Shown one piece after another: positions 15,803 through 63,498 of a stretch of DNA of 64,000 nt (within the stretch, counting starts at the first letter, position 1; every line of letters begins with the position of its first letter). A program made the position numbers and the translations under genes. This DNA comes from Odontocerum albicorne (lineage: Eukaryota > Arthropoda > Insecta > Trichoptera > Odontoceridae): the NCBI GenBank assembly GCA_949825065.1, contig OX463856.1, positions 472,702 through 536,701 on the forward strand, in the 5' to 3' direction. The notes beneath the pieces are model-generated. The model had not been told where the DNA came from and did not search any database. It saw nothing but the letters and a program-made list of their open reading frames with translations.

Positions 15803-16383
15803 TACCAATATGAATCGTACCCAAGGACGCCGGGCCAAAGACAAGCCAATATGAATCGTACACAAGGACGCCGGGCCAAAGACAAGCCAATATGAATCGT
15901 ACACAAGGACGCCGGGCCAAAGACAAGCCAATATGAATCGTACCCATGGACGCCGGGCCAAAGACAAGCCAATATGAATCGTACCCAAGGACGCCGGGCC
16001 AAAGAAAAGCCAATATGAATCGTACCCAAGGACGCCGGGCCAAAGACAAGCCAATATGAATCGTACCCAAAGACGCCGGGCCAAAGACAAGCCAATATGA
16101 ATCGTACCCAAGGACGCCGGGCCAAAGACAAGCCAATATGAATCGTACGCAAGGACGCCGGGCCAAAGACAAGCCAATATGAATCGTACACAAGGACGCC
16201 GGGCCAAAGACAAGCCAATATGAATTGTACCCAAGGACGCCGGGCCAAAGACAAGCCAATATGAATCGTACGCAAGGACGCCGGGCCAAAGACAAGCCAA
16301 TATGAATCGTACACAAGGACGCCGGACCAAAGACAAGCCAATATGAATCGTACCCAAGGACGCCGGGCCAAAGACAAGCCACT
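15803..16383. repeat. 41-bp minisatellite, 14 copies
   Basis: Strict 41-bp periodicity (caatatgaatcgtacccaag and on). 41 is not a multiple of 3 and the unit has no stop on the minus strand, so all three minus frames stay open for about 200 codons. They encode the same 41-residue repeat in different registers. I do not regard any as a demonstrated gene. Confidence 0.95.
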
Positions 16384-28836: not shown

Positions 28837-29576
28837 TGTTTGAAAACGGAAAAGGAATAATCGTAAATGTAACTTTGATGTGTTATTTTATTAGATCTCT
28901 ATATTTCCCTTAACATTCGCTTGAAGATTTAAGGTACTGCTCAGGAGAAGGGATGTGGGAGAGCAGAACAGATGTACGAGTACCTCACATTGCCCAACTA
29001 GGGAGGGTTTCCCTTAATTACTGGAACATCCCTCAGAGGTGAACCCTTGTTGCTATTCATTAACAAGTCTCAGATCAGATAACTGGACAATCTGTTTAAT
29101 GTCTTAAGACAAGAAGATTTCTAAACTAGATTATATCGGTTAGTTTTGAGATCAAAAGTTCTGGATGTGGCATACTTTGGCCTAGATATTTAATTACATG
29201 TCAGCCATTGTATGTCAACTAAGATACGCGTTAATTTATTATTTTTTTATGAAAGATAAAACAAACACGAATGTTTCTATAAAATATATTTAAAAAATAT
29301 TTAATGATAAATTATTTTATTATCCTACTTTGATATATGGGAGAGAAACAAACGTAGAACAAAACAGAAAGGAGCCAAATAAATGTTATAGAACAGTGCA
29401 CACTTAAAATAATACATGGGATTACAATGTATGACTGTTTAGCTTTATCTTTGAGTAATATTTCATGTACATAAGAATATTTAGTTTATTTGCATTGTTC
29501 AGTTGTTTTTAAAGTGGTATTTTTGCTTATGGCTTTATGAATATCTAATATTTTTAAATTTATTTCAATAAATGCC
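28837..29576. other. no feature seen
   Basis: AT-rich; one TACGAGTA near 28976. No supported ORF. Confidence 0.45.
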
Positions 29577-30350
29577 TTGCGGTTTACAGATGATATTGTA
29601 CTTCTTGCTAACGACGAAAATTACTTTGCTGAAATGCTCGATGACATTAGTAGGGCTTCATCACAAGTGGGCCTGAAAATAAATTACAGCAAAACAAAGC
29701 TCGTGAGCAACACAGGTCAGACAACACCTGTCACAGTCAAGGGAAAGACAATAGATAAGGTTTCTTCTTATGTATATCTGGGACAAACAACAAGACTGGG
29801 TAAGGAGAATCAAGATGCTGAAATTGAGAGAAGACGAGGTCAAGCCTGGGCTGCATTTGGAGAGCTGCCTTTTATTCTAAAATCTCCAAAATACGCAAGA
29901 CATCTTTAAAAATCCGTATTCGACTCTTGTGTTCTTCCGGTGCTAACATATGGGCTGGAAACATCGGTGCTGAATAAACAGATTATGCACAAGCTTATGG
30001 TGACGCAGAGGGCCATGGAGAGAAGAATGTTAAATACCTCTCTGAGGGATAGGAGAACCAATGAATAGATTAGGCAGCAGACCAAAGTAGCTGATGTCGC
30101 CGAAAGAGTTGCCATTCAGAATTGTAACTGGGCGGGACACATTGCCAAATGCACAGATGATAGATGGACCAAGAGAGTGCTGAAGTGGCGCCGAAGACAG
30201 GGAAGAAGAAGTGTGGGCCATCCTCAGACACGGTGGTCAGACTGCATTAGAAGAGTGGCCGGGAGCAACTGGAAACGATGTCCCCAGGAAAGAGAGGAAT
30301 GGAGGAGGAGAGGGGAGTCCTATGTTCAACTTTGGACGGAGACGGGCTGA
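29577..30350 (+). pseudogene. RTE-like LINE, RT palm to C-terminus
   Basis: The copy begins at the catalytic motif (RFTDDIVLLA; the DD pair is the metal-binding pair of the RT palm) and runs in one frame for 257 codons to a TGA at 30348. In-frame stops interrupt it at 29907 and 30066. Recognisable blocks are GLKINYSKTKLVSN, VLTYGLETSVL, RAMERRMLNTSLRDRRTNE, WAGHIAKC, RRQGRRSVGHPQTRWSD and REEWRRRGESYV. The 3' end has a TGATGATGA run. The upstream endonuclease and fingers are absent, the typical outcome of 5' truncation on insertion. Confidence 0.85.
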
Positions 30351-34660: not shown

Positions 34661-34993
34661 TCAACTTTTTGAAAACCTTTTTCCACTTATGTGCAGCTTC
34701 AGGGAGGTAAAGAGATAGTAATCTGAAGGTGCTAGGTCAGGGGAATGCGCGGGATGGTTCAGGACATCCCATTTAAACGAGGTGAGCAGTTCCTTCGTGG
34801 CGTTGGCCGTGTGTGGTCTGGCATTGTCGTGCAGCAGGCAGACTCCCTTTGTCAGCATGCCTCTCCTCTTGTTTTGAATCGCCCTCCGCAATTGTTTTAG
34901 GGTCACACAGTATCTTGCAGAGTTGATGGTCTCCCTTTGAGGCATATATTCAATTAAAATTATGCCTTGACAGTCCCAAAAAAAATTCGTCAA
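34661..34993 (-). pseudogene. mariner transposase, C-terminal half
   Basis: Carries the second and third catalytic aspartates (LLHDNARPHTA and LAPSDYYLF, 34 residues apart) and ends early at a stop after HISGKRFSKS. The last part of the protein, normally reaching the inverted repeat, is not preserved. Confidence 0.8.
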
Positions 34994-35219
34994 TTTCGTC
35001 AGTCACAATTGAAGGTCTTCCGCTCCTCTGATCATCATGCACAGACGTACGACCGTTTTTAATCTCGCGACACCACTTGTACACACTCGTACGATTCATA
35101 GCTATATCACCACATGCAGTTTTCACCTCATTATAAACCTCAACCGGAGGTTTTCCATTCCAAACGAGATAACGGATGACCCCCCGTATTTCGCACTTGG
35201 CGGGAGATTGGATTGACAT
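34950..35219 (-). pseudogene. mariner transposase, N-terminal half
   Basis: The ATG at 35219 opens an 89-codon frame with the paired-like helix-turn-helix (VSV-free form: NRTSVYKWCREIKNGRTSV) and linker SGRPSI. It goes out of frame at the deletion junction near 34980. Confidence 0.8.
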
Positions 35220-35582
35220 TTTTCCCGCAACGTGTTATCGCGTCGACACTTCTCAACGTACTGACCTTGAACCGGTCTCGTTGTGGAGGGGAAGGGTCAG
35301 GCTACACGGAAGTGTAGCCAACATGTCGAAAATAAAATCCATCCGGTCGTGAGAGAGCCTCAGTACACTTACTTTCTGGATACGCCTCGTACTCGTATTG
35401 TACTCGAATATTTCCAAATCACAGTTTGTAGCCGTCGCTTTTATCATGCTATAGTTTGAGCGAAAATGTTTTTACAATACGTGCACATACAAACATGACA
35501 TTTCCCTTTTGCAGTAGGCCGAGAGGACTTATCTGACTGTCTACATTTCCTTTTTTCAAAATATCGAACGAACCTTAAATAT

Positions 35583-44650: not shown

Positions 44651-44654
44651 ACTT

Positions 44655-45150
44655 GATGTGTACACCATTCAATGAGGAACTGGGCACCTCTTTATGTGTA
44701 CACCATTCAATGAGGAACTGGGCACCTCTTTATGTGTACACCATTCAATGAGGAACTGGGCACCTCTTTATGTGTACACCATTCAATGAGGAACTGGGCA
44801 CCTCTTTATGTGTACACCATTCAATGAAGAACTGGGCACCTCTTTATGTGTACACCATTCAATGAAGAACTGGGCACCTCTTTATGTGTACACCATTCAA
44901 TGAAGAACTGGGCACCTCTTTATGTGTACACCATTCAATGAGGAACTGGGCACCTCTTTATGTGTACACCATTCAATGAAGAACTGGGCACCTCTTTATG
45001 TGTACACCATTCAATGAAGAACTGGGCACCTCTTTATGTGTACACCATTCAATGAAGAACTGGGCACCTCTTTATGTGTACACCATTCAATGAAGAACTG
45101 GGCACCTCTTTATGTGTACACCATTCAATGCGGAACTGGGCACCTCTTTG
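44655..45150. repeat. 38-bp minisatellite, 13 copies
   Basis: Units gtgtacaccattcaatgagg and on, homogeneous apart from an a/g choice (gagg or gaag). The right flank ctttgacttggttcatccac also follows a shorter array at 49.83 kb. Confidence 0.95.
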
Positions 45151-50970: not shown

Positions 50971-52276
50971 TACAGGGTCTTTCAATAAGGACGCTCAGTA
51001 TTTAATGTAAATAAAACAAGTTGTGTGTGAGATACCCATTATTTTTTTTTATTTGAAAGAATATTTTATGGCATTAAGTATGAAGTATAACGTTGTTCAA
51101 ATGTCCGCCGTGGCTTTGCTTGGTGGCACGTATTCGGGAGCTCCAATTTTCGATGACATTGTCGCATAAATCTGGCTGAATTTGCTGTATGGCGTTCGTT
51201 ATGTTGACTTTGAGGGCATCAATTGTTTGCGGTTTATACGCATAGACCTGCGATTTAAGATAGGCCCAAAGGAAGAAGTCTAAACGCGTTAAATCGCACG
51301 ATCTCGGTGGCCAGTTACGTCGCCGTCGCGCGAGATAACCATGCCCTCAAATCGCTAGTGCAGAATGTCCATCGTGGTATGCGCTGTGTGGCACGTAGCG
51401 CCGTCGTATTGAAACCACATGTCGTCGGTATCCATATCATCACAAGAAGTTGCTTATCATCGATCTGTAGCGACGGTTATGGCAATGCCAGTTTTATTTT
51501 GGAAGAACTACGGACCGATGATTCCTACAGGGCAAAATCCGCACCAAACAGTGATTTTCTCGGGTTACGTTTGGTGCTGGTGTATCTCGTGTAAATTGGT
51601 ATCTTCCCAAATCCAACAATTTTGCTTGTTCACACATCCATTCATCCAAAAATGGGCTTCGTCGCTAAAGATGTTTTTTTTGACTAAATTTGGGTCAACT
51701 TCCAACTGCTCCAGAGCCCAATCACCGAACACACGGCGTTGTCTATGGTCGTTTACTTTAAGTTCTTGGGTCAGTTGGATTTTGTACGGGTGCAGACCTA
51801 AGTCCCGACGCAAAATTTGCCAAGTTGAAGGCGCAGAAAGGCCAAGTTCTTGTGACGCAAAATTTGCCAAGTTGAAGGCGCAGAAAGGCCAAGTTCTTGT
51901 GAACGGCGAGAAATTGACTGACTCGAGTTTTCCCGTACACTCTCACTCACAGCAGCGATGGTTTCAGCAGACGTTGCGTTTTGGTGAAGTACGGGTGTTG
52001 GCTGATTATTTATCAAACCGGTTGACTTGAATTTGGATACCAAACGTCGAGAAGTCGACTCGGCAGGACGGTTGTGGCGAGGATAAAAATCACGTAATGC
52101 GCGGAACGTTTCTCGAACGGAGCACTGGTTTTGAAAATAAAATTTGATAATTTGTACACGTTGTTCAATGCTATTACCTTCTATGGTGATTTGTCATACA
52201 CTATTTAACAATTCACAATAAATTTGATAGATGCTGCTTTAACAAATTTTGAGCGTCCCTATTGAAAGAACCTGTA
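50971..52276 (-). mobile_element. TA-flanked Tc1/mariner-superfamily element with DD41D spacing (rosa-like)
   Basis: 1306 bp bounded by tacagggtctttcaataagg (50971) and the inverse of tacaggttctttcaataggg (ending 52276), with TA on both outer sides (50969-50970, 52277-52278). The length is that of an intact element of this superfamily. On the minus strand it encodes a broken transposase. The spacing between the second and third catalytic aspartates (DGATCHTA and TRLDFFLW) is 41 residues once the frameshift is allowed for, as known for the rosa group. It lies just past the poly(A) signals of the secreted-protein gene. Confidence 0.88.
51074..52190 (-). pseudogene. rosa-like transposase, frameshifted
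   Basis: N-terminal part: SIEQRVQIIKFYFQNQCSVR, then a helix-turn-helix (SISRRSQELGLSAPSTWQIL). A perfect 47-bp tandem duplication near 51800-51900 throws the frame. It resumes with RRDLGLHPYKIQLTQELK, FSDEAHFWMNGCVNKQN (first catalytic D), then after further frame breaks QYDGATCHTA (second D) and WPPRSCDLTRLDFFLW (third D). It ends HGGHLNNVILHT-stop at 51076-51074. At least two frame changes and stops (for example after TMDILH) make it inactive. The residues around the aspartates are otherwise well kept, so decay is recent. Confidence 0.85.
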
Positions 52277-52288
52277 TATGATTTCATT

Positions 52289-52338
52289 TTTATTCTTAAA
52301 ATCTAATAAATGATTTGGATGAAACAAAAGAATTTATT
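52289..52338 (-). promoter_or_regulatory. candidate poly(A) signals of the secreted-protein gene
   Basis: Read on the minus strand, AATAAA occurs at 52338-52333 and again at 52294-52289, about 220 and 260 bases after the stop. Beyond them lies the terminal inverted repeat of the rosa-like transposon at 52276, so the transcript probably ends at the edge of that element. Confidence 0.4.
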
Positions 52339-52554
52339 TAATTTTAAAAAGATATTTAATAGATAATATTTTTTTTACATATTTTTTCCATGACCTACTG
52401 CGGCTGGTAACACCTTAAATTTATCTGAGTCAATGACTAAACTCTCTTAAATATACTAATTTCGCGACAGAGACAGCGGCTTAAATATATCGGTGTGCAC
52501 GGAGAGGAAAATATAATGTTATGGAATTACGCGTATATCTTTGAATCGTTTTGC

Positions 52555-52722
52555 TCATGGAGGACAAGTAGAGCAATTCTCTCCAAGGAACTCATCGATC
52601 GCATTCTTGGAGTTGTTGAATGCCGTCTGGTTATTGAGCGAACACAGGAACTCGAGCCTAGAGGTCAATCGGGCGCAGCAACACCGACTGGTGTTGGCGG
52701 ACAGCACAAATGTGTTAAACGT
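52555..52722 (-). CDS. exon 6: cysteine-rich C-terminus and stop
   Basis: The final exon has 168 nt (55 codons plus TGA at 52557-52555). The acceptor is tttgattttccag and the first codon is in phase 0. The peptide has a CCC run (TSRCCCARLT), further cysteines in EFLCSLN and ENCSTCPP, and sequons NTS, NQT, NNS and NCS, consistent with an extracellular domain. The antisense plus-strand frame over the same bases is also open for about 70 codons, but it has no start or splice context linking it to anything and I treat it as a shadow. Confidence 0.78.
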   Translation of the reverse strand, partial: TFNTFVLSANTSRCCCARLTSRLEFLCSLNNQTAFNNSKNAIDEFLGENCSTCPP

Positions 52723-55700
52723 CTGGAAAATCAAACAGCACTTGTTGCAATAGAATTCTCATACCTTTCGCAGTATAAAGCTTAGTAATAATCATAGCAG
52801 TATACTACGAGTATAAATCCAGTAGGATTCTCGATGCCCAAGATCTAAGATAGATGGTTGATAAAAAGTGCCAAGGAGTGAATGGAAAGGGGGGTGAAGT
52901 CCTAAGTGCATTGTCATAATTAAAGTCGACAACAAAATTTTATTTTAGTCTTCCATTTTAGCAAATTTCGATAGCATCCGGTTCAAATACATATTTTAGT
53001 GCCCCATTGACTTTGTTTGTTATCGCTATACGCTGTTGAATATCCCTCTTAACACTTCCATCATCTGGGAAAATACTACTCAGATTATAGAACTCCTCAA
53101 CTTGCTCCTACCTTACATTATTCACTCATATATCACATTACTTTTTGTTTCACATTTTTCTATCACCATTCCTCTAGATTTTCCAACATTCATTCTCAGA
53201 TCTTTCTGTTTGCGTCTATCATACAATTTACTTATCAAACGTTTCCATTCAACACCATATTCATTCAATATATTTTCCATAGCTTGTCGCTTATCACGCG
53301 GTCATATGATTTTTCCAAGTCCACGAACACAAAATACACTTTATCATTTTTTGTCACACATTTTCCTCAAGTATACGCAAAGATGAAGTCTGATCCACGC
53401 ATTCTCTTCGACTTAAAAAAGCACCCTGAGTATCTCACACTTTCTTTTCAGTCTTTCTTCTCTCTCTTTATATCAGAATTTTCTCGAACAGTTTATTTAT
53501 TACACTCAGTAAACTAATAACTGTAACTTCCACGCTCCATTCTAGCACCCTTTCTTTTATGTAACAGAAACATTAATACACGTTTTCAGTATTTTGGTGT
53601 GTAGTCAGATTTCTAACATTTTTTGAAAACTGTCTCAACCTCTAGACCCCTTTTCATTATGTGCTCACTTCATGGCAGCCGGACGTTTATCCTTTTTTTA
53701 TGTCTTTATCAGTTCGTACTTCTTGTAAACTGATCACATTCAGATTTTCCAAATGCTCACAATTATCACCTTTACCATACTCGAAATTGTTTATCACCAC
53801 TCTCGCACTCGAATGAGCCCTCCGTTCTTCTGACATAACCATTTCATTCCTTTCTCTGCTTCCACTCATACCTCGCAATAATCTCAACTCCCTAAATTTA
53901 AAACAACTTAACAGTTTCTAAACAGTTTCACCAATTTAACTATCGTGTTACTATCTCCATATTTCATCTGTCTTGAGTCACGATCTCCATATTTCATCCA
54001 TAACAACTCCAATGGTTTACTCTTCACTTCCTTATATTTAGATTGATTATTTGAATGTTTAAAGGATAATGTTCCTATAGATTGGATATGGGCAACCACG
54101 CAGTAATCCTGAATTCGGTTTAATGGGTTACGAGGATATTGAACGAGTATATGAATTATTGATTGTTTATTTGCAAGTTTGTCACCATCCGTACTTAGCT
54201 CGTCCGAACATAATATTGTTTCGATATATGTTACCTACTCGTAGGTGATATACACAATATTCGTGACTTACAGAAATATTGTTCTTCTTGAACAACCAAT
54301 AAAAGTGTGTATTTTATTTAATATTTTTTAACACCCCCGTGTTTTTGAACCCATCTAAAGTATCTAGATTACAGATTTATCAATTAAGTTATAATGAATG
54401 AATAACTATCTCCATATTGTATCCATAAGAACAACAGTTGCTTTATTATTCAATTCCTTATTTTTCTATTATTGTAAAGTTAATAAATATCCTTCTCGTA
54501 CGTACCTCAAAATATGAAAACCTCTGATATTGCCTGTACAACACGATCTGCTGTCTGTTTAAGGAGAAAGTGAGGATGGTAGCATGCGCCCTCTCCAAGA
54601 AGTTTTTGGACTGATAGAGTTTGAGGAAGATCTGCTTTAGTGGGCAAGGTATCATCCGGCCGTACAGGTCCCAGTACTTCTCCCAGTCAAACACAAGACC
54701 GTTCTCGTAACATTGGTCTTTGGGTGCCTGACGAAAAAATCATTAAATGCAGCAAAAACTGTATTTTCTCGTGTCACGCTTTCATTAATTTTCCACGTTT
54801 AAATTTTACTAGTTGCAACCCGTGAAATATTCACAGAAGTAACACAAAGTCTACATTTATGAAATCATACTCGTTTATTCATAAATGTAGAATTTGTTTA
54901 TATACTCGTATATCATTTATACATCGTCCCCTTTTGCACCGGTTCAAAAATTATTACTTAGGTATTTAAAATTCGTTCAATTATCGCGGACCCAACGAGT
55001 TTCACATTTCGAATTACTTTCGGAGAGAATCCAAGTATTCCTCTCTCGTTCTCTTGTATTCAAAATTCAATTCTCGTATTATTTCTTCGACGACAACCAT
55101 CGTATAGGTTTTGGCCTATTTATACTATGATTCGTATTTTAAAAATAGATCAAATCATGATAAAACAAAGATATCTTTTAATCAAAATAGTTATTGGAGA
55201 TTTTGTTTTATTTTTATTTTTCGTTAAATGATTATTTAAAGTGTGTTTTCTTAAATTTACGTTAAAAAGACTATTTTCTGACCTAGCTGGTAAAGTCTTG
55301 ACTTTTAACACATGGTTTCAGATTTAAACTCCGTTCAGACCTAATTGAAGGTTCAAGCCTAGATCTATATTTCCTCTCTTGTTTGTAAGATATGGTAAAT
55401 GTTAATCGTCAGTGTTGTTTATGCAACAATATTGTTTTTATATAAATATCTAACTCCTATTTAAAACACCTGAATACTATGTTACTTTCCCTCATAACAC
55501 GCCCGTTATACTTCGATCAGGCGATAAAAGATTTCTTTGCCTTACTTACATTTCACACATGTTTGTTTAAGTTTCACTAGACCTGAGGATGCAAAGAACC
55601 TCCAAAAGTTCATCAGATGTGCACTATAATTATTTACGTTTAAGAATGAGCTGAAAACAATTGCATAACTCAGATTATACTTTTATCCTAATGTCACTTT

Positions 55701-58700
55701 GTTTCCCTTCCTTATCCTTGAATGAATTTCTTCCCTCTACTTCAGAGGTGGTCAAACTTTTTGAACTGCGTGCCAAAACCAGTATCGAGTCACTTGTGTT
55801 TTTTTACTAAAAGACATATCAAAATTAGAATTACTGAAAACGAGTTAACGTGCTCCAATTTGTCTTGACCCTATGGCTATTATTCCAAAAGCACTGTGTT
55901 AAGTGTACCTTCGGTTTGCTTATATACAGCTATAAAACACTACAAAAGCACTATATTAAGTGTACCTTCGGTTTGCTAATATACTGTTACAAAGCGCCAC
56001 AAAAGCACTATGATAAGTATAACTTCGGTTTGCTAATATGCTGTTACAAAGCGCCACAAAAGCATTATGTCAAGTTTACCATCGCTTTGCTAATATACTT
56101 TTACAAAGCGCCACAAAAGCACTATGATAAGTATAACTTCGGTTTGCTAATATACTGTTACAAAGCGCCACAAAAGCATTATGTCAAGTATACCTTCGCT
56201 TTGCTAATATACTTTTACAAAGCGCAACAAAAGCACTATGTTAAGTATACCTTCGGTTTGCTAATAAACAGTTACCAGTACAAAGCGCCACAAAAGATAT
56301 TTTAGGTATACTCAATCTTGCCAGTCCGGAATCACGAAGAACTTAAATGTGACGACAACGAAAATCGATCCCGGGACCCTTGGTTCATGAGACAAATGAT
56401 TTAACCACTGTACCAAGAAGATAGATAAATTCTTGTATTGATTTTGTTAATGAATTTAAATACAATCCGCAATATATGTCATATTAAATTAGCCAGCACA
56501 GTCCATGCAATGCGCCATCCATTAAACCATCGACACCAGCAAAACTGTCTTTGTTATTTATTTATTTTACACTTTTATTGCAAATACAATCTGGCGGGCT
56601 TATTGCTTATTGCCTTTGATGTTTGGGCAGATACTTATGTTAAATACATTTATATATTAACGTGTTGAAACAGTCAGTGGTGTGATGACGATTTAACTTT
56701 TGATTTTGCTTATGGTATGAACATTTCAATTTTTGTCTGTTAACATATTAATTTCCCTTTAACAATTATGTCTATAGTGGTGCCTGATTTTGTGCAATAC
56801 GAGCTGTCTGCATTGGATATCCTCGTATTGTGTTATTAGCGTATAGTTTTGTACGCTTGTATACTTCTGTGTTATGTTATTACTATATTTTTGTTGTAAG
56901 TATCTTAAATTATTGGTCTTGTATCTTTTTTATGTATAAAGCACTAACTTCTGTTTTTTTTAATTATTCTTATAACCACGTATGCTATATTATAAAGTAC
57001 ATGATACCGTTTGTAAAGCAATAAAAAAAAAGAACCGTTTGTAAAGCAATAATAACCTTAAATACAAAAAGTAAAAGTCCAAGTTAAGCTCCATTAAGCA
57101 GCGAAAATGAGAGAGAGAATATTGATTGATGTGAGAGGAAGATTGCATTATCCAAATTGAGGAGGATTGCTTTTGATTGAATAGAGTGCTAACAAGCCAT
57201 CTAGATGGCGATGGTCCATCGCGGAGTGTAGTGCTGATGATTACCTGCAGCTCCGATACACCTTTGCAGCCAATAGATTTTAGTGATGCCACCTTCTGTT
57301 GTTCACAAGTGCTGTACACGAGATTGGACACCTCAATCATATTATCTACGTAGAGTTTTTCTTCCCGAGTTTTCTCGTATTCAACTGAATTATTGATCAC
57401 CTGGAAATACGTAAAAAAATTGTGATTTTTGAGCAATTCCTTAAAAAAATATTGTGGTTGAATCGGGATTTAATATATTAAACTTTCACTGACGACCCCC
57501 AGTTCTATATATTGCACAGGTTTAAAGTAAGCTGTTGCTGTTGTGCTAGATTGGTCTTTTCTTATATGATTTATAGTCAGAACGTCAACACCGTGAAACT
57601 TTCAAAAAATTATTAATTATTTATTAAAACATTGTTTTTCCCCTTGGAATAATAATATAACTCTACTAGTTAAGATATTTACCCCGCGTCATCAGGGTAA
57701 CACAATGTGAGGCGCATGACTGTGTGGTAACATACTGGACTTCAGTGCGGGAAGGTCTCCGGTTCGAACCGCACTCGGATACTCCCCTCAAACGAACCAG
57801 GAGTTTTTATCTTTGTGTTACAATTATGCCTTTGGTTGAATCTATTCTTTCAAATAAAGAAAAAGAAAAAAATATGCCGGTGGGCTTTGACCATATCAAT
57901 CCGGTGTGACATCGTGTCTAGTACAGCGGTGTGGCCGGTTAGTTTGCTGGTGTGCAACGGATCTCTCACTTAAAGATGAAAAAGGAAAAAAAGAAAAAAA
58001 AGCAGGAACATCTTCACTTCCCAACTGAATGGTGAGGGAGTTTTTGACTAGAATGCCCAGCAATGGCGATAAAAAAACATTTTATTTTCATTGCAAGGTT
58101 TTTGGAAAGCCAAACCGGAAGAACCGAAACCTGTGCTTGATGACGATTAGTTTTACCTTGTCTGGCAAGCGTGTAAAGAAAACGACTACAATAAAGCACT
58201 TCTTTGAAATTCTGAAAGATTCTTTCCATGTTTTTAACATATGTAGTAGGAGAAACGGCTGTGAGATTCGATCCCAGCCACAGTGATACTAGTAGATATA
58301 ACGAAGTTACTTTGACTGTTTACTGTTTTTTTTTAATGGAAGGAGACCATCAATTTAATTATATTCTTTTTTTTTTATTTGAATATTCATTTTTTTAATA
58401 ATTATATCTTATAACTATATATATTCTTAGTTTTTCAAAAATTAATAATGCGTTTCCTTTAAGGGGATCCCCAACTACGAGGCCCAGCTAAAACGAACGA
58501 CGAGGGGAGTAAAAACAAGACTGATTAACGTTATGGCTGGAACCGACATACTAAACGGGCTATTATTTTTATTATGATGACGATAACCTGAGCAAACTTG
58601 CAGAGATTCGGGTAGCTGTAGGCACCCGAGAGCACAGCGGTAACCCAGATGGTATAGATGAAGGGCAATCGAAAGTTAGGTTGTCCAGTAGCAGATGCAT

Positions 58701-61700
58701 CACCCATCTCAAATAAAAAGTCACGAAGCTCCACCAATAGCGGGGACAGGCGGGAGAAGGCCGGATGAGCCCAGGAGCGTCTGCAAGTGTCAGGCGTGTC
58801 AATTAGTTCTCAACGAGATCAGTTAACAAATCCAAAGAAATATTTTCAATAACATACATAACATAATGTTGCTTCCCTGCTGGAGTAGGCAGATAAGAGA
58901 GAGCGCTAGACTTTCTTATCGTATATACATCATCACGCCATCTCTCTATCGCGGTAGAAGACAGAGAGGAGTGAAAATCTGACTTTCCTATTCAATACAC
59001 ATATTTTGCCTCCCCTACATCCATACCTTCTCACACAGCTCCTACGATTCTCTTCATTCTATAGTAAATATGATACACTTGATTTAGCCAGACTTTGGTT
59101 TTAGCCATTCTTCTTTGGTCTTCCTATACACACGCCTTTCACATACATTTACGACATGAGTTTGTCTCATTAGTCTTTCTTCATTAATTAGTTCCACGCG
59201 ACCAAACCATATCAGAGGGCTCTTCACTGTCGTATTGAATACGTGATAAGTTCAAGCTCATCCCTTATTCATTTTGTATTCGGTAATATATTATGATCTC
59301 GTGTGTTCTTCTAAGTGCACACATTTCAACAGCATTTATTTGGCTGTTGTCAGTATTGTTTAACGTCCACGTTTTACACCCATAGATCATAATTTGTACA
59401 ACTACACTGTTGTGGACTATTATCTTGGATTTTATTAATTGTATCATTATAGTGTGCGAGTTTGTGTGTATGAAGAAACAGAGATGATTATAGTGTGCGA
59501 GTTTGTGTGTATGAAGAAACAGAGATGATTATAGTGTGCAAGTTTGTGTGTATGAAGAAACAGAGATGATTATACAATAGTGTGCGAGTTTGTGTGCATG
59601 AAGAAACAGAGATGATTATAATGTGCGAGTTTGTGTGTATGAAGAAACAGAGATGGTTATACAATAGTGTGCGAGTTTGTGTGCATGAAGAAACAGAGAT
59701 GATTATAGTGTGCGAGTTTGTGTGTATGAAGAAACAGAGATGATTATAGTGTGCGAGTTTGTGTGTATGAAGAAACAGAGATGATTATAGTGTGCGAGTT
59801 TGTGTGTATGAAGAAACAGAGATGATTATAGTGTGCGAGTTTGTGTGTATGAAGAAACAGAGATGATTATAGTGCGCGAGTTTGTGTGTATGAAGAAACA
59901 GAGATGATTATAGTGTGCAAGTTTGTGTGTATGAAGAAACAGAGATGATTATACAATAGTGTGCGAGTTTGTGTGCATGAAGAAACAGAGATGATTATAA
60001 TGTGCGAGTTTGTGTGTATGAAGAAACAGAGATGATTATACAATAGTGTGCGAGTTTGTGTGCATGAAGAAATAGAACAGAACATTGGACGTACTGTTTT
60101 TGAAATTGCGTGAGTATTCTGGGTACCTTGCACTGATTTTTGACATCCCTTGATGCTGATGAAGGATATTCAAAATGGTTATATGTGATACTCCAATCAT
60201 CTCTGCAAGCTGCTGTTGGTTTAGACGGGCTTCTTCCAGCACAAGCTTTTCTACTTTTTTGACGATGTTTGAAGAACTGGCCACAACAGCCCGTCCTGGT
60301 CGGAGGTTTTATGAGTAACTTAACCCTCCGATTAGTGACAAGGTCCCTGGGGACGTTTTCGATTTTTGTTTACTCACAACTTTCTCTTTGTATGTTTTAC
60401 AAACGTGATGCTGTATGTATTCCAAAAAAAAAAACATGCTGAAGCGATTAAAATCGGTTTCAAAGCGGTAAGATCACTTGTTCGTGTTTTATTACGGTTT
60501 GAAAATATTAAGTACGGGAATCAGGTACAAGATCTTTAGGGACCTTATACCTGACTTGTACCATTATTGAAAGAAATCGTAAATGAATTGTGTTTGCCGT
60601 GCCGATGATGAATAAATCGGTCCTGCTATTGTATACAATGCATTATATAGTAGTTGTTCGGTAGATAGTGAAACCGATAAGCGAAAGCCAATGGTCATTC
60701 TGGACTACAATGACCATAAATCTGGGGTGGACATAATGGATCAGATGCTTGGCACTTATTCATGCAAACGTTCAACAAATCGTTGGCCGCTTGCAATGTT
60801 TTACAACATGATAGATATTGCTGCATTGACCGCATTCGTAATTTACGATGAGATGAAGCCTGTTCAAAAAACAGACAAGCGACGTTCGTTTTTGCGATTG
60901 TTGACGAAACAATTAGCTATTTCAAATATCAAAGAACGAGCCACCAATACACGCATAATGTGCTATCCCAAAATTCGAATTGCTATGGAAGCATTTGATG
61001 TAAAGGTAACGTTGAAATTGAATATTGAAACTCACAAACATAGAAATAACATTTTTTTTTATACTTTCGGCCATCATGCCAGTTATATCGTGCGCAAAAC
61101 CAGATCATATTGCTATACCTGCAATAAAGCGGTTTGTGCTGAGCATTCAGCATTATTGTATCGGTGCGATACCTGCATTCTTGCGTTAGCTGACCATGAA
61201 TACGCAGCACAATAATACATTTATTACCACTTTTATTTTTTACCTGTCAAATAATACCTGAATTACCAAAAAAACTTATTTTTTTGCCTTTATAACTTAT
61301 ATTTTATCCTTCTATATACATTTAGGCACCTTATACAACCATAAGCTAACATAACCATAAGCTACATAACCATAAGCTAAAAATTGTATGGTATTATCAC
61401 CATGCACGCATAATGTGCTATTCCAAAATTCGAATTGCTATGGAAGCATTTGATGTAAAGGAAAAGTGGAAATAGAATATTGAAACGCACAAACAGAAAA
61501 AACATCTTTTATTTTTTTTATATTTTCCGGTAGTAGCAAGACCAAAATCAGGAGCTGCACCTGTACGAATTGGCCATCATGCCAGTTATATCGTGCGCAA
61601 AACCAGATCATATTGCTATACCTGCAATAAAGCGGTTTGTGCTGAGCATTCAGCATTATTGTATCGGTGCGATACCTGCATTCTTGCGTTAGCTGACCAT

Positions 61701-63498
61701 GAATACGCAGCACAATAATACATTTATTACCACTTTTATTTTTTACCTGTCAAATAATACCTGAATTACCAAAATAAACTTATTTTTTTGCCTTTATACT
61801 TATATTTTATCCTTCTATATACATTTAGGCACCTTATACAACCATAAGCTAACATACAAAACCATCAAGACACACCTGCATGATGATAATACCATACAAT
61901 TTTTTGACGGTCCCTAGAGACCTTGTCACTTTTTTAACGCCGCCGGGACTGTCACCGATCGGAGGGTTAATAAAGGCGCGTTACTCAAATGTTTTCATAC
62001 TTGGGATGTCATTAACGTTTAACATACTTTCCTGATAATAACATATCTTTAAAAAATCTGTCAAAATTATACCAAAATTTAATGAATATACTTATAATGA
62101 GTCATATTATCGGAACTTAACCCCTTCGTTCCGCGAGTTTATTGACCTCCCCTCGTAGGTAGAATGATTCGATAATGAAATGGGAAAAATATTTATGCTT
62201 ATAATCATCAAAAGAAGTTTAATCATAAAAGGAACAAATATCCTGTGATCTTGTTTAATTTGGAGTCTAATGTACCAATAGATTTAATATTTATTGTAAA
62301 GTGCCCTCACTTGATCATTATTAGCGCTGTGCGAGGATCTCTAAAGTTGTAAGGCAACGTTGTGTTAGGACATCTTTTGCATGGTCCGCTGGGACTTGGA
62401 GGACCCGCATTTTGTCCCTGGAATATTGTCATATTTCATTATTCAAAGGTGTTGGGTTTTACATGACACTGCATATGATGGTGTGAAACAATAAGTTACG
62501 TTAATATTCCCTAATTCTACTATGAATATCACTGAGATACATGTTATTACCTCCTATCCCGCCTGAAAGTTTCATAGTCATTTTTCAATTAAAGCATGAC
62601 GACCTCCGTTGTCTAGTTCAAAACGTGTTTAACTACACTACAGGGATTTCGGTAAAGAAACCTGAAGTAAAAACCAGACACGTGCCCTTATTTTAAAGAG
62701 TACGGATACAAACGGCAATTGAAACCGCAACTCCCTGGCTGGAAACCATGCATCTGCTTACCATCTAGGTCACGGAGGTCGTACTACAGACGATGAAGAA
62801 GATAAAACGATTAGTTTTGTATCCATTGCACCTGATTGTGCAAATAAAAATTACTTATAGAAAAGAACCAAATGTCTTTTTTTATTGACAAACGTTTAAT
62901 GTTCCTGATAAACATTTCGTTAATTAAGATTGTTTTCGATGCTGTCTTTACGAACCAAGCTATTAAGGGCATCACAACTTACACACGGAATAAGATTGAA
63001 TTTCCAGTATTTGATATATTATGTTAATAAATTGCGGATAGTACTTCTTAAAAATATGACTGAGCCGGTTATATAAGATCCATCAAAGTTTTGCGCCGCA
63101 TGGTTTGCCTAATGATGCTGATGTTTCGAAAACATCGCAGTTTTCATCAACTTTTATTGAGGCCTTTCTCCCATGGTGGGGCAGACCCACGTAGGGGTTG
63201 AGATTTAAGGAGCCTATGATCGTTCATGTGTATGATATGTCCAGTTTACCTCAATTTCGCCTCTGCAACCATATCCTTGACCAGTTTTATGTTGAAACGT
63301 TGCAAGAACGAAGCGTTTGTGACATGATCACTTCATTATTTTTCAGGGATACAACAAAAAAAACATTTGTGGAACATTTGTAATCGGATCAAAACTGTAT
63401 CGAAATTAAATCTAAGTATGTTTAATAAAAATAAAAGTCACATGTTGGCCCACGATCAACCCCATCAGCACCGAGAGGAACAGCACACAAGAGTTCAT
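52555..63498 (-). CDS. six-exon gene for an uncharacterised secreted protein (300 aa)
   Basis: The coding sequence is the join 63498-63442, 62417-62311, 58780-58588, 57400-57245, 54727-54506, 52722-52555 on the minus strand. Each internal exon has AG before it and GT after it, and the reading frame is kept across all five junctions; only the second junction splits a codon (two bases plus one, giving Lys). The total is exactly 300 codons plus TGA. The product starts with a hydrophobic 19-residue stretch typical of a signal peptide. It then has 13 cysteines, including a CKRC near the N-terminus, a CCC run and a C-terminal CSTC. N-x-S/T sequons are NTT, NNS, NTS, NQT, NNS and NCS. No further membrane segment is evident. 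I infer a secreted, disulphide-bonded glycoprotein. I do not recognise the family and assign no function. Introns (1.0, 3.5, 1.2, 2.5 and 1.8 kb) are full of transposons and minisatellites. Confidence 0.8.
52970..53530 (-). pseudogene. RTE-type LINE with RT fingers and palm start, in intron 5
   Basis: Minus-strand pieces read VTVISLLSVINKLFEKF, SDFIFAYT and YFVFVDLEKSYDRVISDKLW. The last carries RT motif A (D-LEKAYDRV in the family). The frame breaks repeatedly, and an internal deletion then leads straight to 3' blocks (tttagtgccccattgacttt on the plus strand). It lies inside intron 5 of the secreted-protein gene, same strand. Confidence 0.7.
53640..54505. other. rest of intron 5
   Basis: A minus-strand ORF of 66 codons (53687-53887; NNFEYGKGDNCEHLENLN) may be more of the LINE. 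53945-54010 has a two-copy ctccatatttcatc repeat. Nothing else is seen. Confidence 0.35.
54506..54727 (-). CDS. exon 5: aromatic-rich segment FDWEKYWDLYGRM
   Basis: The exon has 222 nt (74 codons, phase 0 on both sides). The acceptor is ttttttcgtcag and the donor GAG|GTACGT, one of the best splice sites in the gene. The peptide has two cysteines (KDQCYENG and MIPCPLKQ), many aromatic residues (FDWEKYWDLYGRM, QYQRFSYFE) and long helical-looking stretches. Local GC content rises well above the flanking intron. The Helitron in intron 4 begins about 80 bases upstream of this exon. Confidence 0.82.
54809..55130 (-). mobile_element. non-autonomous Helitron, copy 3 (322 bp), in intron 4
   Basis: On the minus strand it starts A|TCATAGTATAAATAGGCC and ends with tgaatatttcacgggttgcaa and CTAG|T, like copies 1 and 2 over its whole length. 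It is inserted 82 bases from exon 5 without touching the splice site. Confidence 0.88.
55131..55884. other. part of intron 4; one hAT-like end
   Basis: cagaggtggtcaaacttttt at 55744 has the look of a hAT 5' terminus (CAG-GG-xxTCAAAC). No partner end was found. Confidence 0.35.
55885..56305. repeat. 57-bp minisatellite, 7 copies, in intron 4
   Basis: Units tatactgttacaaagcgcca and on. 57 is 19 codons, so the plus strand shows a 151-codon ORF of 19-residue repeats (CYKAPQKHYVKYTFGLLIY). It lies antisense within an intron and has no other coding support. Confidence 0.93.
56306..56430 (-). mobile_element. tRNA-like SINE head
   Basis: The minus strand reads cttcttggtacagtggttaa ... cccgggatcgattttcg, with A- and B-box-like spacing. 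56431-57244 is AT-rich with nothing else. Confidence 0.45.
57245..57400 (-). CDS. exon 4: acidic helical segment
   Basis: The exon has 156 nt (52 codons, phase 0 on both sides). The acceptor has a clear pyrimidine tract (ttttttacgtatttccag) and the donor is CAG|GTAATC. The peptide starts VINNSVEYEKTREEKLYVDN, carries one sequon (NNS) and two cysteines (in VYSTCEQQ and SIGCKG), and looks largely helical. The open frame runs on into the intron for about 80 codons, so ORF length alone does not give the border; it is set by the donor and by the match to exon 5. Confidence 0.8.
57700..57930 (+). mobile_element. tRNA-headed SINE of a second family, in intron 3
   Basis: gaggcgcatgactgtgtggt ... tctccggttcgaaccgcact has a good B-box (GGTTCGAACC). 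The body (ctttgtgttacaattatgcc and on) differs from the main family. Confidence 0.6.
57931..58587. other. rest of intron 3
   Basis: An 85-codon plus ORF at 58029-58286 has no start or splice support. T-rich runs at 58325-58400. No named repeat. Confidence 0.35.
58588..58780 (-). CDS. exon 3: SWAHPAF...NLCKFAQ segment
   Basis: The exon has 193 nt: one base plus 64 codons. The acceptor is cacttgcag and the donor CAG|GTTATC (weak at +4 to +6). The peptide begins RSWAHPAFSRLSPLLVELRD, has an amphipathic helical look, then a mixed hydrophobic stretch around IYTIWVTAVLSGAY, and ends with its only cysteine in NLCKFAQ. It leaves the frame at phase 0, as exon 4 requires. The same bases read in the other minus-strand frame are less protein-like and do not join the neighbours. 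Confidence 0.8.
58860..59460 (-). pseudogene. RTE-type LINE C-terminal/3' region, in intron 2
   Basis: The minus frame reads KSKIIVHNSVVVQIMIYGCK, TWTLNNTDNSQINAVEMCAL and YYRIQNE: the VLL-YG-ETW and R-INAVEMR-L blocks of the family. The 3' part to 58860 follows the usual block order to the ctgctggagtaggcagataa end. Several stops break it. Confidence 0.75.
59440..60080. repeat. 41/46-bp minisatellite, about 15 copies, in intron 2
   Basis: Units gattatagtgtgcgagtttg and on. A second variant inserts acaat after gattat and has gcatg in place of gtatg; the two variants alternate in blocks. Confidence 0.94.
60080..60300 (-). pseudogene. mariner-type transposase N-terminal fragment
   Basis: The minus frame reads RPGRAVVASSSNIVKKVEKL, then LEEARLNQQQLAEMIGVSHI and TILNILHQHQGMSKISARY. 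This is the GRP linker-plus-helix-turn-helix order of mariner transposases (V-KLV-E-RRL---ELA---GIS---V--IL---LGM-K-SARW). It stops there; no catalytic part follows. Confidence 0.75.
60691..61215 (+). pseudogene. piggyBac transposase, C-terminal third
   Basis: Reads LDYNDHKSGVDIMDQM, which holds the DYN-xK-GVD block with the last catalytic aspartate of piggyBac transposases, then YSCKRSTNRWPLAMFYNMID. A C-terminal cysteine-rich domain follows (CYTCNKAVCAEHSALLYRCDTC spacing C-x2-C, C-x2-H, C-x2-C) before TAA. The frame extends a few codons upstream of the ATG (SETDKRKP). The first two catalytic aspartates and the N-terminus are missing. Where the second copy has a longer link to the Cys-rich domain, this copy has a deletion between NNIFFYTF and GHHASY. 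Confidence 0.85.
61400..61860 (+). pseudogene. second copy of the piggyBac transposase 3' end
   Basis: Repeats 60945-61345 with small differences. It keeps a segment (VVARPKSGAAPVRIGHHA) that is deleted in the first copy, and it has frame changes near 61470. The Cys-rich domain and the 3' untranslated part are nearly identical to the first copy. Confidence 0.8.
62311..62417 (-). CDS. exon 2: CxxC-containing N-terminal part of the mature protein
   Basis: The exon has 107 nt: 35 codons plus two bases. It is preceded by an acceptor reading gacaatattccag and followed by a good donor, AA|GTGAGG. It encodes a Gly/Pro/Ser-rich start, then CKRC, a sequon (NTT) and a basic stretch with FRDPRTALIMI. 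The two leftover bases AA join the first A of exon 3 to make a lysine codon. Without splicing the frame ends at a TGA immediately after the exon, which fits a real exon border. Confidence 0.75.
62590..62790. mobile_element. fold-back pair of SINE heads, in intron 1
   Basis: cgacctccgttgtctagttc at 62599 (plus) and its counterpart ccatctaggtcacggaggtc at 62762 (minus) face each other; the minus head includes B-box-like cgcaactccctggctgg complement. A linker block (aaaccagacacgtg) lies between. Confidence 0.55.
63180..63390 (-). pseudogene. RTE-like LINE C-terminal scrap, in intron 1
   Basis: Plus-strand tacctcaatttcgcctctgc, aaccatatccttgaccagtt and gttgcaagaacgaagcgttt match 8540-8690 in order and orientation, so this is a shorter copy of the same minus-strand LINE. 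Confidence 0.65.
63442..63498 (-). CDS. exon 1: start codon and signal peptide
   Basis: ATG at 63498 opens a 19-codon exon reading MNSCVLFLSVLMGLIVGQH: a short polar start, a hydrophobic core and small residues near a plausible cleavage site around VGQ/H. The ATG has a purine at -3. The exon ends at CAT followed by GTGACT, which is an acceptable but not strong donor. It ends on a codon boundary, matching the frame of exon 2. This ATG was chosen because it directly precedes a hydrophobic leader and the frame closes soon beyond the donor. This is the least certain exon, since a different first exon could be used. Confidence 0.65.

Follow-up and report, generated by a model that had tools for sequence, protein, structure and literature searches.

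Fibrohexamerin/P25 is an N-glycosylated, secreted subunit of the silk unit. The fibroin light chain (FibL, or L-fibroin; PF05849) is reported to attach covalently to the C-terminal part of the fibroin heavy chain and to serve as a linker for silk units (PMC12661448). FibL of Yponomeuta is reported as a 258-aa protein with an isoelectric point (pI) of 4.34 that is encoded by seven exons (PMC9684489). Here, we analyzed a 64,000-nt stretch of Odontocerum albicorne DNA (C24:472702-536701 of a 1.29-Gb assembly; hereafter, the window), in which an earlier note had proposed a hidden six-exon gene for a secreted, cysteine-rich protein on the minus strand. We find that this gene does not stand alone: it belongs to a set of six intact copies arranged in tandem, within a larger family. 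It is an intact member of a tandemly amplified family of predicted secreted, Cys-rich, sequon-conserving proteins that probably form a divergent branch of the L-fibroin superfamily and may supply a linking subunit of a secreted material. Its predicted product resembles the fibroin light chain in being secreted and of similar size class, whereas its multicopy array, its 13 cysteines after the leader, its six N-glycosylation sequons and its basic charge set it apart. It shares predicted secretion and N-glycosylation with Fibrohexamerin/P25, although no sequence relation to P25 surfaced in Pfam scans, and no search was aimed at P25.

Exon 1 (63442..63498; 57 nt) carries the start codon and a signal-peptide-like leader, MNSCVLFLSVLMGLIVGQH, and ends at the donor GTGACT. 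Exon 2 (62311..62417; 107 nt) encodes a Pro-rich stretch and a CxxC motif (CKRCPNTT), and its end falls inside a split codon that is finished by exon 3 (58588..58780; 193 nt), the last residues of which are NLCKFAQ. Exon 4 (57245..57400; 156 nt; VINNSVEYEK...SIGCKGVSELQ) and exon 5 (54506..54727; 222 nt; APKDQCYENGLVFDWEKYWD...KLYQSKNFLERAHAT) are both phase 0/0, the latter with a variable 3' tail, and exon 6 (52555..52722; 168 nt) encodes a CCC motif, C272 and ENCSTCPP before the stop codon. When joined, the six exons gave 903 nt, or 300 codons plus the stop, with GT-AG borders at all five introns and phase 0 at the four junctions other than that between exons 2 and 3. This bore out the claims that open reading frame (ORF) scans miss the gene and that its six segments keep phase across five junctions, including one split codon. 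The joined protein contains 14 cysteines (one in the leader and 13 after it) and six sequons (N37, N122, N255, N276, N281 and N294), in agreement with the counts first reported. Its leader is hydrophobic, which by hydropathy alone points to secretion with a signal peptide, and the mature protein has a pI of 8.6, assuming cleavage after residue 17. Each coding exon is GC-richer than its flanks; GC content at third codon positions was 0.58, and that of introns was 0.33-0.36. The six-exon secreted-protein model is supported as far as paralogues can show.

The whole genome was searched with the window protein, and the family size given here rests on that search. At E<=0.001 it returned 61 matches at exon level, spread over six contigs (C24, C16, C2, C10, C37 and C32). 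Those on C24 span 525-665 kb and all lie on the minus strand, forming a tandem array with six complete copies: A (the window copy, at the low-coordinate end), B, C, D, E and I. Exon lengths in these copies are 57, 107 or 116, 193, 156, 222 and 168-192 nt, the 9-nt difference in exon 2 being in frame, and all 30 introns are GT-AG with no internal stop. The gene is considered real because five further intact six-exon copies exist in the same genome. The earlier note had named homologues with another exon order or frame as grounds for rejecting its model; the five copies share its exons, junctions and frame. Partial or divergent copies sit between the complete ones, and two show a stop or break. 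The partial copies at C24:625913-626041 and 642707-642867, which contain a stop or have exon 6 disrupted, are probably pseudogenes.

The array copies are under purifying selection: by the Nei-Gojobori method, 14 of the 15 pairs among the six copies had synonymous divergence (dS) of 0.13-0.35 and ratios of nonsynonymous to synonymous divergence (dN/dS) of 0.25-0.68. All 14 cysteines of copy A are present in every complete copy, as are five of its six sequons, N281 being a sequon in A and B only. The dN/dS and cysteine counts take in only the six complete copies, leaving aside the partial copies F and H, copy G and an isolated exon 6 at C24:657 kb.

A Viterbi gene finder was given the DNA alone; its splice tables and codon model were built on consensus values, and its score is comparative rather than a probability. 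It returned exons 2-6 with identical borders and a score of 23.7. That value was reached by none of 1000 order-2 resamples of the same 12-kb sequence, whose scores averaged -0.4 (s.d. 1.4) and peaked at 9.6. This null is lenient, because other real stretches of the window reach 16.6 with tandem arrays masked (31.6 before masking). Two results counted against exon 1 as first drawn. The finder placed the start at 62432, on an in-frame ATG, and exon 1 has a weak donor (CAT/GTGACT; position weight matrix score 3.6, with 7.8% of GTs on the strand scoring equally well). About 5% of stretches of equal length would be expected to offer a leader-like first exon of this kind. The question was settled because the array copies conserve the exon 1 peptide with synonymous changes alone. 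The same 19 residues, and with them the proposed signal peptide, occur in all six copies, even though the nucleotides differ from the window copy at 0 (B), 6 (C, I) or 7 (D, E) positions. Copy A is 88-89% identical to C, E or I in exon 1, and 72-75% identical to them in intron 1; intron 1 identity in the other pairs tried was 100% (A/B), 92% (C/D) and 85% (C/I). Copy I lacks the rival ATG, which the other five retain.

These results bear on two readings that would do away with the gene or its independence. A chance chain of open segments might be suspected, since the exons were picked by eye, exon 1 has a weak donor, and unrelated stretches likewise exceed the resample null. Yet the finder recovered exons 2-6 at a score that no resample attained, and conserved structure with synonymous change in the paralogues already refutes a chance chain; we regard it as practically ruled out, in keeping with the original judgment that chance agreement was unlikely. 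Copy A could instead be a pseudogene of recent origin, or a duplicate of copy B created in assembly, given that the two are 98.7% identical over 8 kb, that their dN/dS is 0.80 (4.5 synonymous and 12.5 nonsynonymous differences) and that many differences sit in the tail of exon 5. However, the frame, splice dinucleotides, cysteines and sequons of A are intact, and introns 4 (2517 vs 1600 nt) and 5 (1783 vs 1840 nt) of A and B are unequal in length, which makes this reading improbable. In copy A, the 3' tail of exon 5 (window 54506-54560) is strongly unlike that of the near-twin B and stands apart from all five other copies, perhaps through gene conversion, relaxed constraint or selection.

Relatives at 36-46% identity were found as copy G on C24 and as genes on C2 and C16, and C10 holds another. 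The proteins of these genes, and of a more distant trio on C37, were assembled by hand from tblastn matches, ORF pieces and splice-site scores, and cover exons 3-6 or 4-6 only. The exon 5 model of copy G is cut short at its end, and the C32 matches and most C16 matches were left out of the gene models. The gene finder put extra exons into its models of loci L025, L026 and L028, and in L026 and L028 it passed over the exon 4 used here. In an alignment of four array copies, copy G and the C2 and C16 genes (A1; n = 7), ten cysteines were invariant (C115, 151, 164, 177, 199, 259, 260, 261, 272 and 295). The nine from C151 onward also occur in the C10 gene, C115 being outside its alignment. In place of the CKRCPN of exon 2, the C10 gene has a CSRCPN exon that ends in the same phase. 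The C37 trio matched the family by hhalign with a probability of 98.7 (E 2.9e-16; 151 columns). Counterparts of exon 4 measure 156 nt in C2 and C10, 153 in C16, 168 in C37 (L027 and L029) and 147 in a gene on C25 that is treated below, the C10 and C16 borders being taken from listed splice sites rather than gene-finder choices. Exon 5 is 222 nt in all 13 genes for which borders were placed (six array copies, C2, C16, C10, three on C37 and the C25 gene). Two C37 genes have two exon-4-like exons upstream of one exon 5 (L027 5646-5454 and 4271-4104; L030 1679-1871 and about 2757-2921), which suggests a duplicated or alternative exon.

The earlier note had found the protein unlike any recognized family and had advised sequence and profile searches, which were run here. 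The joined protein had no protein-database match at E<=10 (713 candidates), and exon 5 with its flanks returned no candidate in the same kind of search. As a control, the ORF of a DUF4817 transposon in the window gave 93 protein-database matches, three of them with a source name; the database contains at least some animal proteins. There was no significant match in the PDB, hits at E 1-2.4 being set aside, no Pfam match over cut-off, and no relative in scans of viral and prokaryote contigs. Several candidates (PF13808, YL1_C, TMEM100, SPC25, CDGP, ROK, Defensin_1, TB and Dicer_PBD) were rejected as below cut-off or at E>0.01 and not common to the family branches. Single-exon AlphaFold models were weak, with a predicted local distance difference test score of 61 for exon 3 (single-sequence AlphaFold 2, helical) and 52 for another. 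In open-licence PMC literature, the phrase 'fibroin light chain-like' was not found, PF05849 or IPR008660 occurred in one paper, and no such array appeared in titles or abstract starts; family members may stand under neutral names in annotations elsewhere. The lack of resemblance noted earlier holds for the protein itself, which no library recognizes; its family, which connects to the fibroin light chain by way of the C37 branch, probably does not stand entirely apart.

All three C37 genes match PF05849 within positions 128-204 of its hidden Markov model (E 3.8e-4, 0.03 and 0.18). A genome search with PF05849 found one gene over the cut-off of 27 bits, on C25 (12.24 Mb), with 40.6 bits for a single exon and 52.5 bits for the joined model. 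This gene has a 222-nt phase-0/0 exon with PTLENSCKDFGRIYEFEHSWD, after a phase-0/0 exon starting IINANV; the counterparts in the window gene are APKDQCYENGLVFDWEKYWD and VINNSV. Its C and W (C-x12-W) and its LY are one residue out of register relative to exon 5 of the window gene. The layout and phases of exons 4, 5 and 6 are as in the window gene, and within this one genome a 222-nt phase-0/0 exon is common to the array, C2, C16, C10, C37 and C25 genes. By hhalign, the C37 profile scored 32.8 with C25, compared with 21.5 for the highest of 200 shuffles, and a merged profile scored 29.7, compared with 22.4 for the highest of its 200 shuffles. An unrooted FastTree tree groups C25 with C37 (support 0.89). 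Unlike the window gene with its array, the C25 gene was found at one locus, and its joined model (214 residues) has four cysteines and neither CCC nor CxxC. The C25 gene could represent a derived form of FibL or a paralogue of the canonical one. Its 222-nt exon (L033 4241-4020) has no cysteine at what we take to be the position of the inter-chain cysteine of Bombyx FibL. A second PF05849 match, on C9 (15.4 bits, E 5.4), was by eye unlike an exon of the window-gene family and was rejected; among the best candidates only, a weak match on C23 carries a stop.

These comparisons support a distant common origin of the window family and L-fibroin. The link is fair for the C37 genes and indirect for the window gene, and much of it hangs on the shared exon size and phase. 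Several points weigh against it. The window protein itself has no PF05849 match at E<=10. The C37 matches all fall below the curated cut-off, two of the three genes are near-twins of each other (L027 and L030), and the lowest E-values (3.8e-4 and 4.9e-4) were obtained with an upstream exon other than the aligned exon 4, with which L027 gives 0.03. The array-family profile scored 21.91 against C25, at the edge of the best of 200 shuffles (21.83), and hhalign probabilities against C25 are low throughout (C37, 52.8; merged, 32.3; array family, 3.9). C25 lies on a long branch in the FastTree tree, the window gene departs from Yponomeuta FibL with its 300 aa, six exons and pI of 8.6, and linkage of the window protein to a partner is argued by analogy alone. 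We do not claim membership of the window gene in FibL proper, because it falls short of the Pfam cut-off and differs in exon number and acidity.

With these points in mind, the array could represent a real, secreted, Cys-rich, lineage-specific family unrelated to the fibroin light chain, the L-fibroin signal being chance joined to a coincidental exon length. The absence of significant direct Pfam, PDB or database matches fits this, as do the score of the array-family profile at the shuffle maximum and the low hhalign probabilities. We nevertheless think it rather unlikely, as the three C37 genes match the same region of PF05849, join the array family at E 2.9e-16 and exceed all 200 shuffles against C25 as a profile, and as the same 222-nt phase-0/0 exon follows a phase-0/0 exon of similar start. 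Given the C37 bridge, a wholly isolated window family is probably to be discounted. The family might also derive from FibL and do a soluble job, in haemolymph or in a gut or reproductive-tract secretion, with all cysteines paired internally and no covalent link to a polymer. All seven A1 members keep ten of the 13 cysteines that follow the leader, an even number that suits internal disulfides, and the mature pI is basic; the odd post-leader count in the window protein and its CCC motif argue the other way, and we hold a soluble role to be possible though unlikely.

The reading we prefer, a linking subunit on a divergent L-fibroin branch, starts from the observed gene structure, array, leader and conserved cysteines of the family. 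After removal of the signal peptide, the protein core would fold with several internal disulfides. Within the secretory pathway, a leftover cysteine might then couple the protein to a partner, much as the light chain is coupled to the fibroin heavy chain, so that the protein would become a linking component of silk or another gland product. The array would supply dosage and sequence variety. By analogy with the light chain, the array proteins are perhaps disulfide-stabilized subunits with a linking role in an extracellular material; what is said of their fold, partner and tissue, and of the material itself, is conjecture. A broader and doubtful extension is that the fibroin light chain is one member of a broad secreted superfamily, the Cys-rich glycosylated branch amplified here forming a second extracellular material, assembled through disulfides and distinct from ordinary silk (for example an adhesive, an egg coat or a mating secretion), whose sequence variety would come from the exon 5 tail. 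If the link holds, the fibroin light chain has unsuspected multicopy relatives, which would offer a route to the origin of the silk light chain and to its roles before or besides silk. Conserved exon size and phase can expose a family that profile libraries miss.

Downstream of exon 6, putative poly(A) signals at 52289..52360 on the minus strand (ATTAAA at 52360 and 52342, AATAAA at 52294) were identified by pattern match alone. Transposon fragments over Pfam cut-offs lie at 60616-61212 (DDE_Tnp_1_7, piggyBac-like), 51801-52193 (DUF4817), 34664-35234 (Transposase_1, mariner-like) and 29541-29906 (reverse transcriptase), and a repeat of about 286 nt occurs at 61069-61353 and 61572-61856 (99.3% identical). 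The window is rich in minisatellite arrays with units often of about 27-59 bases (62 Tandem Repeats Finder rows, overlaps counted), for example at 1252-1722, 15805-16381, 44652-45149 and 59446-60076. The last of these and another at 55886-56275 lie inside introns of the window gene.

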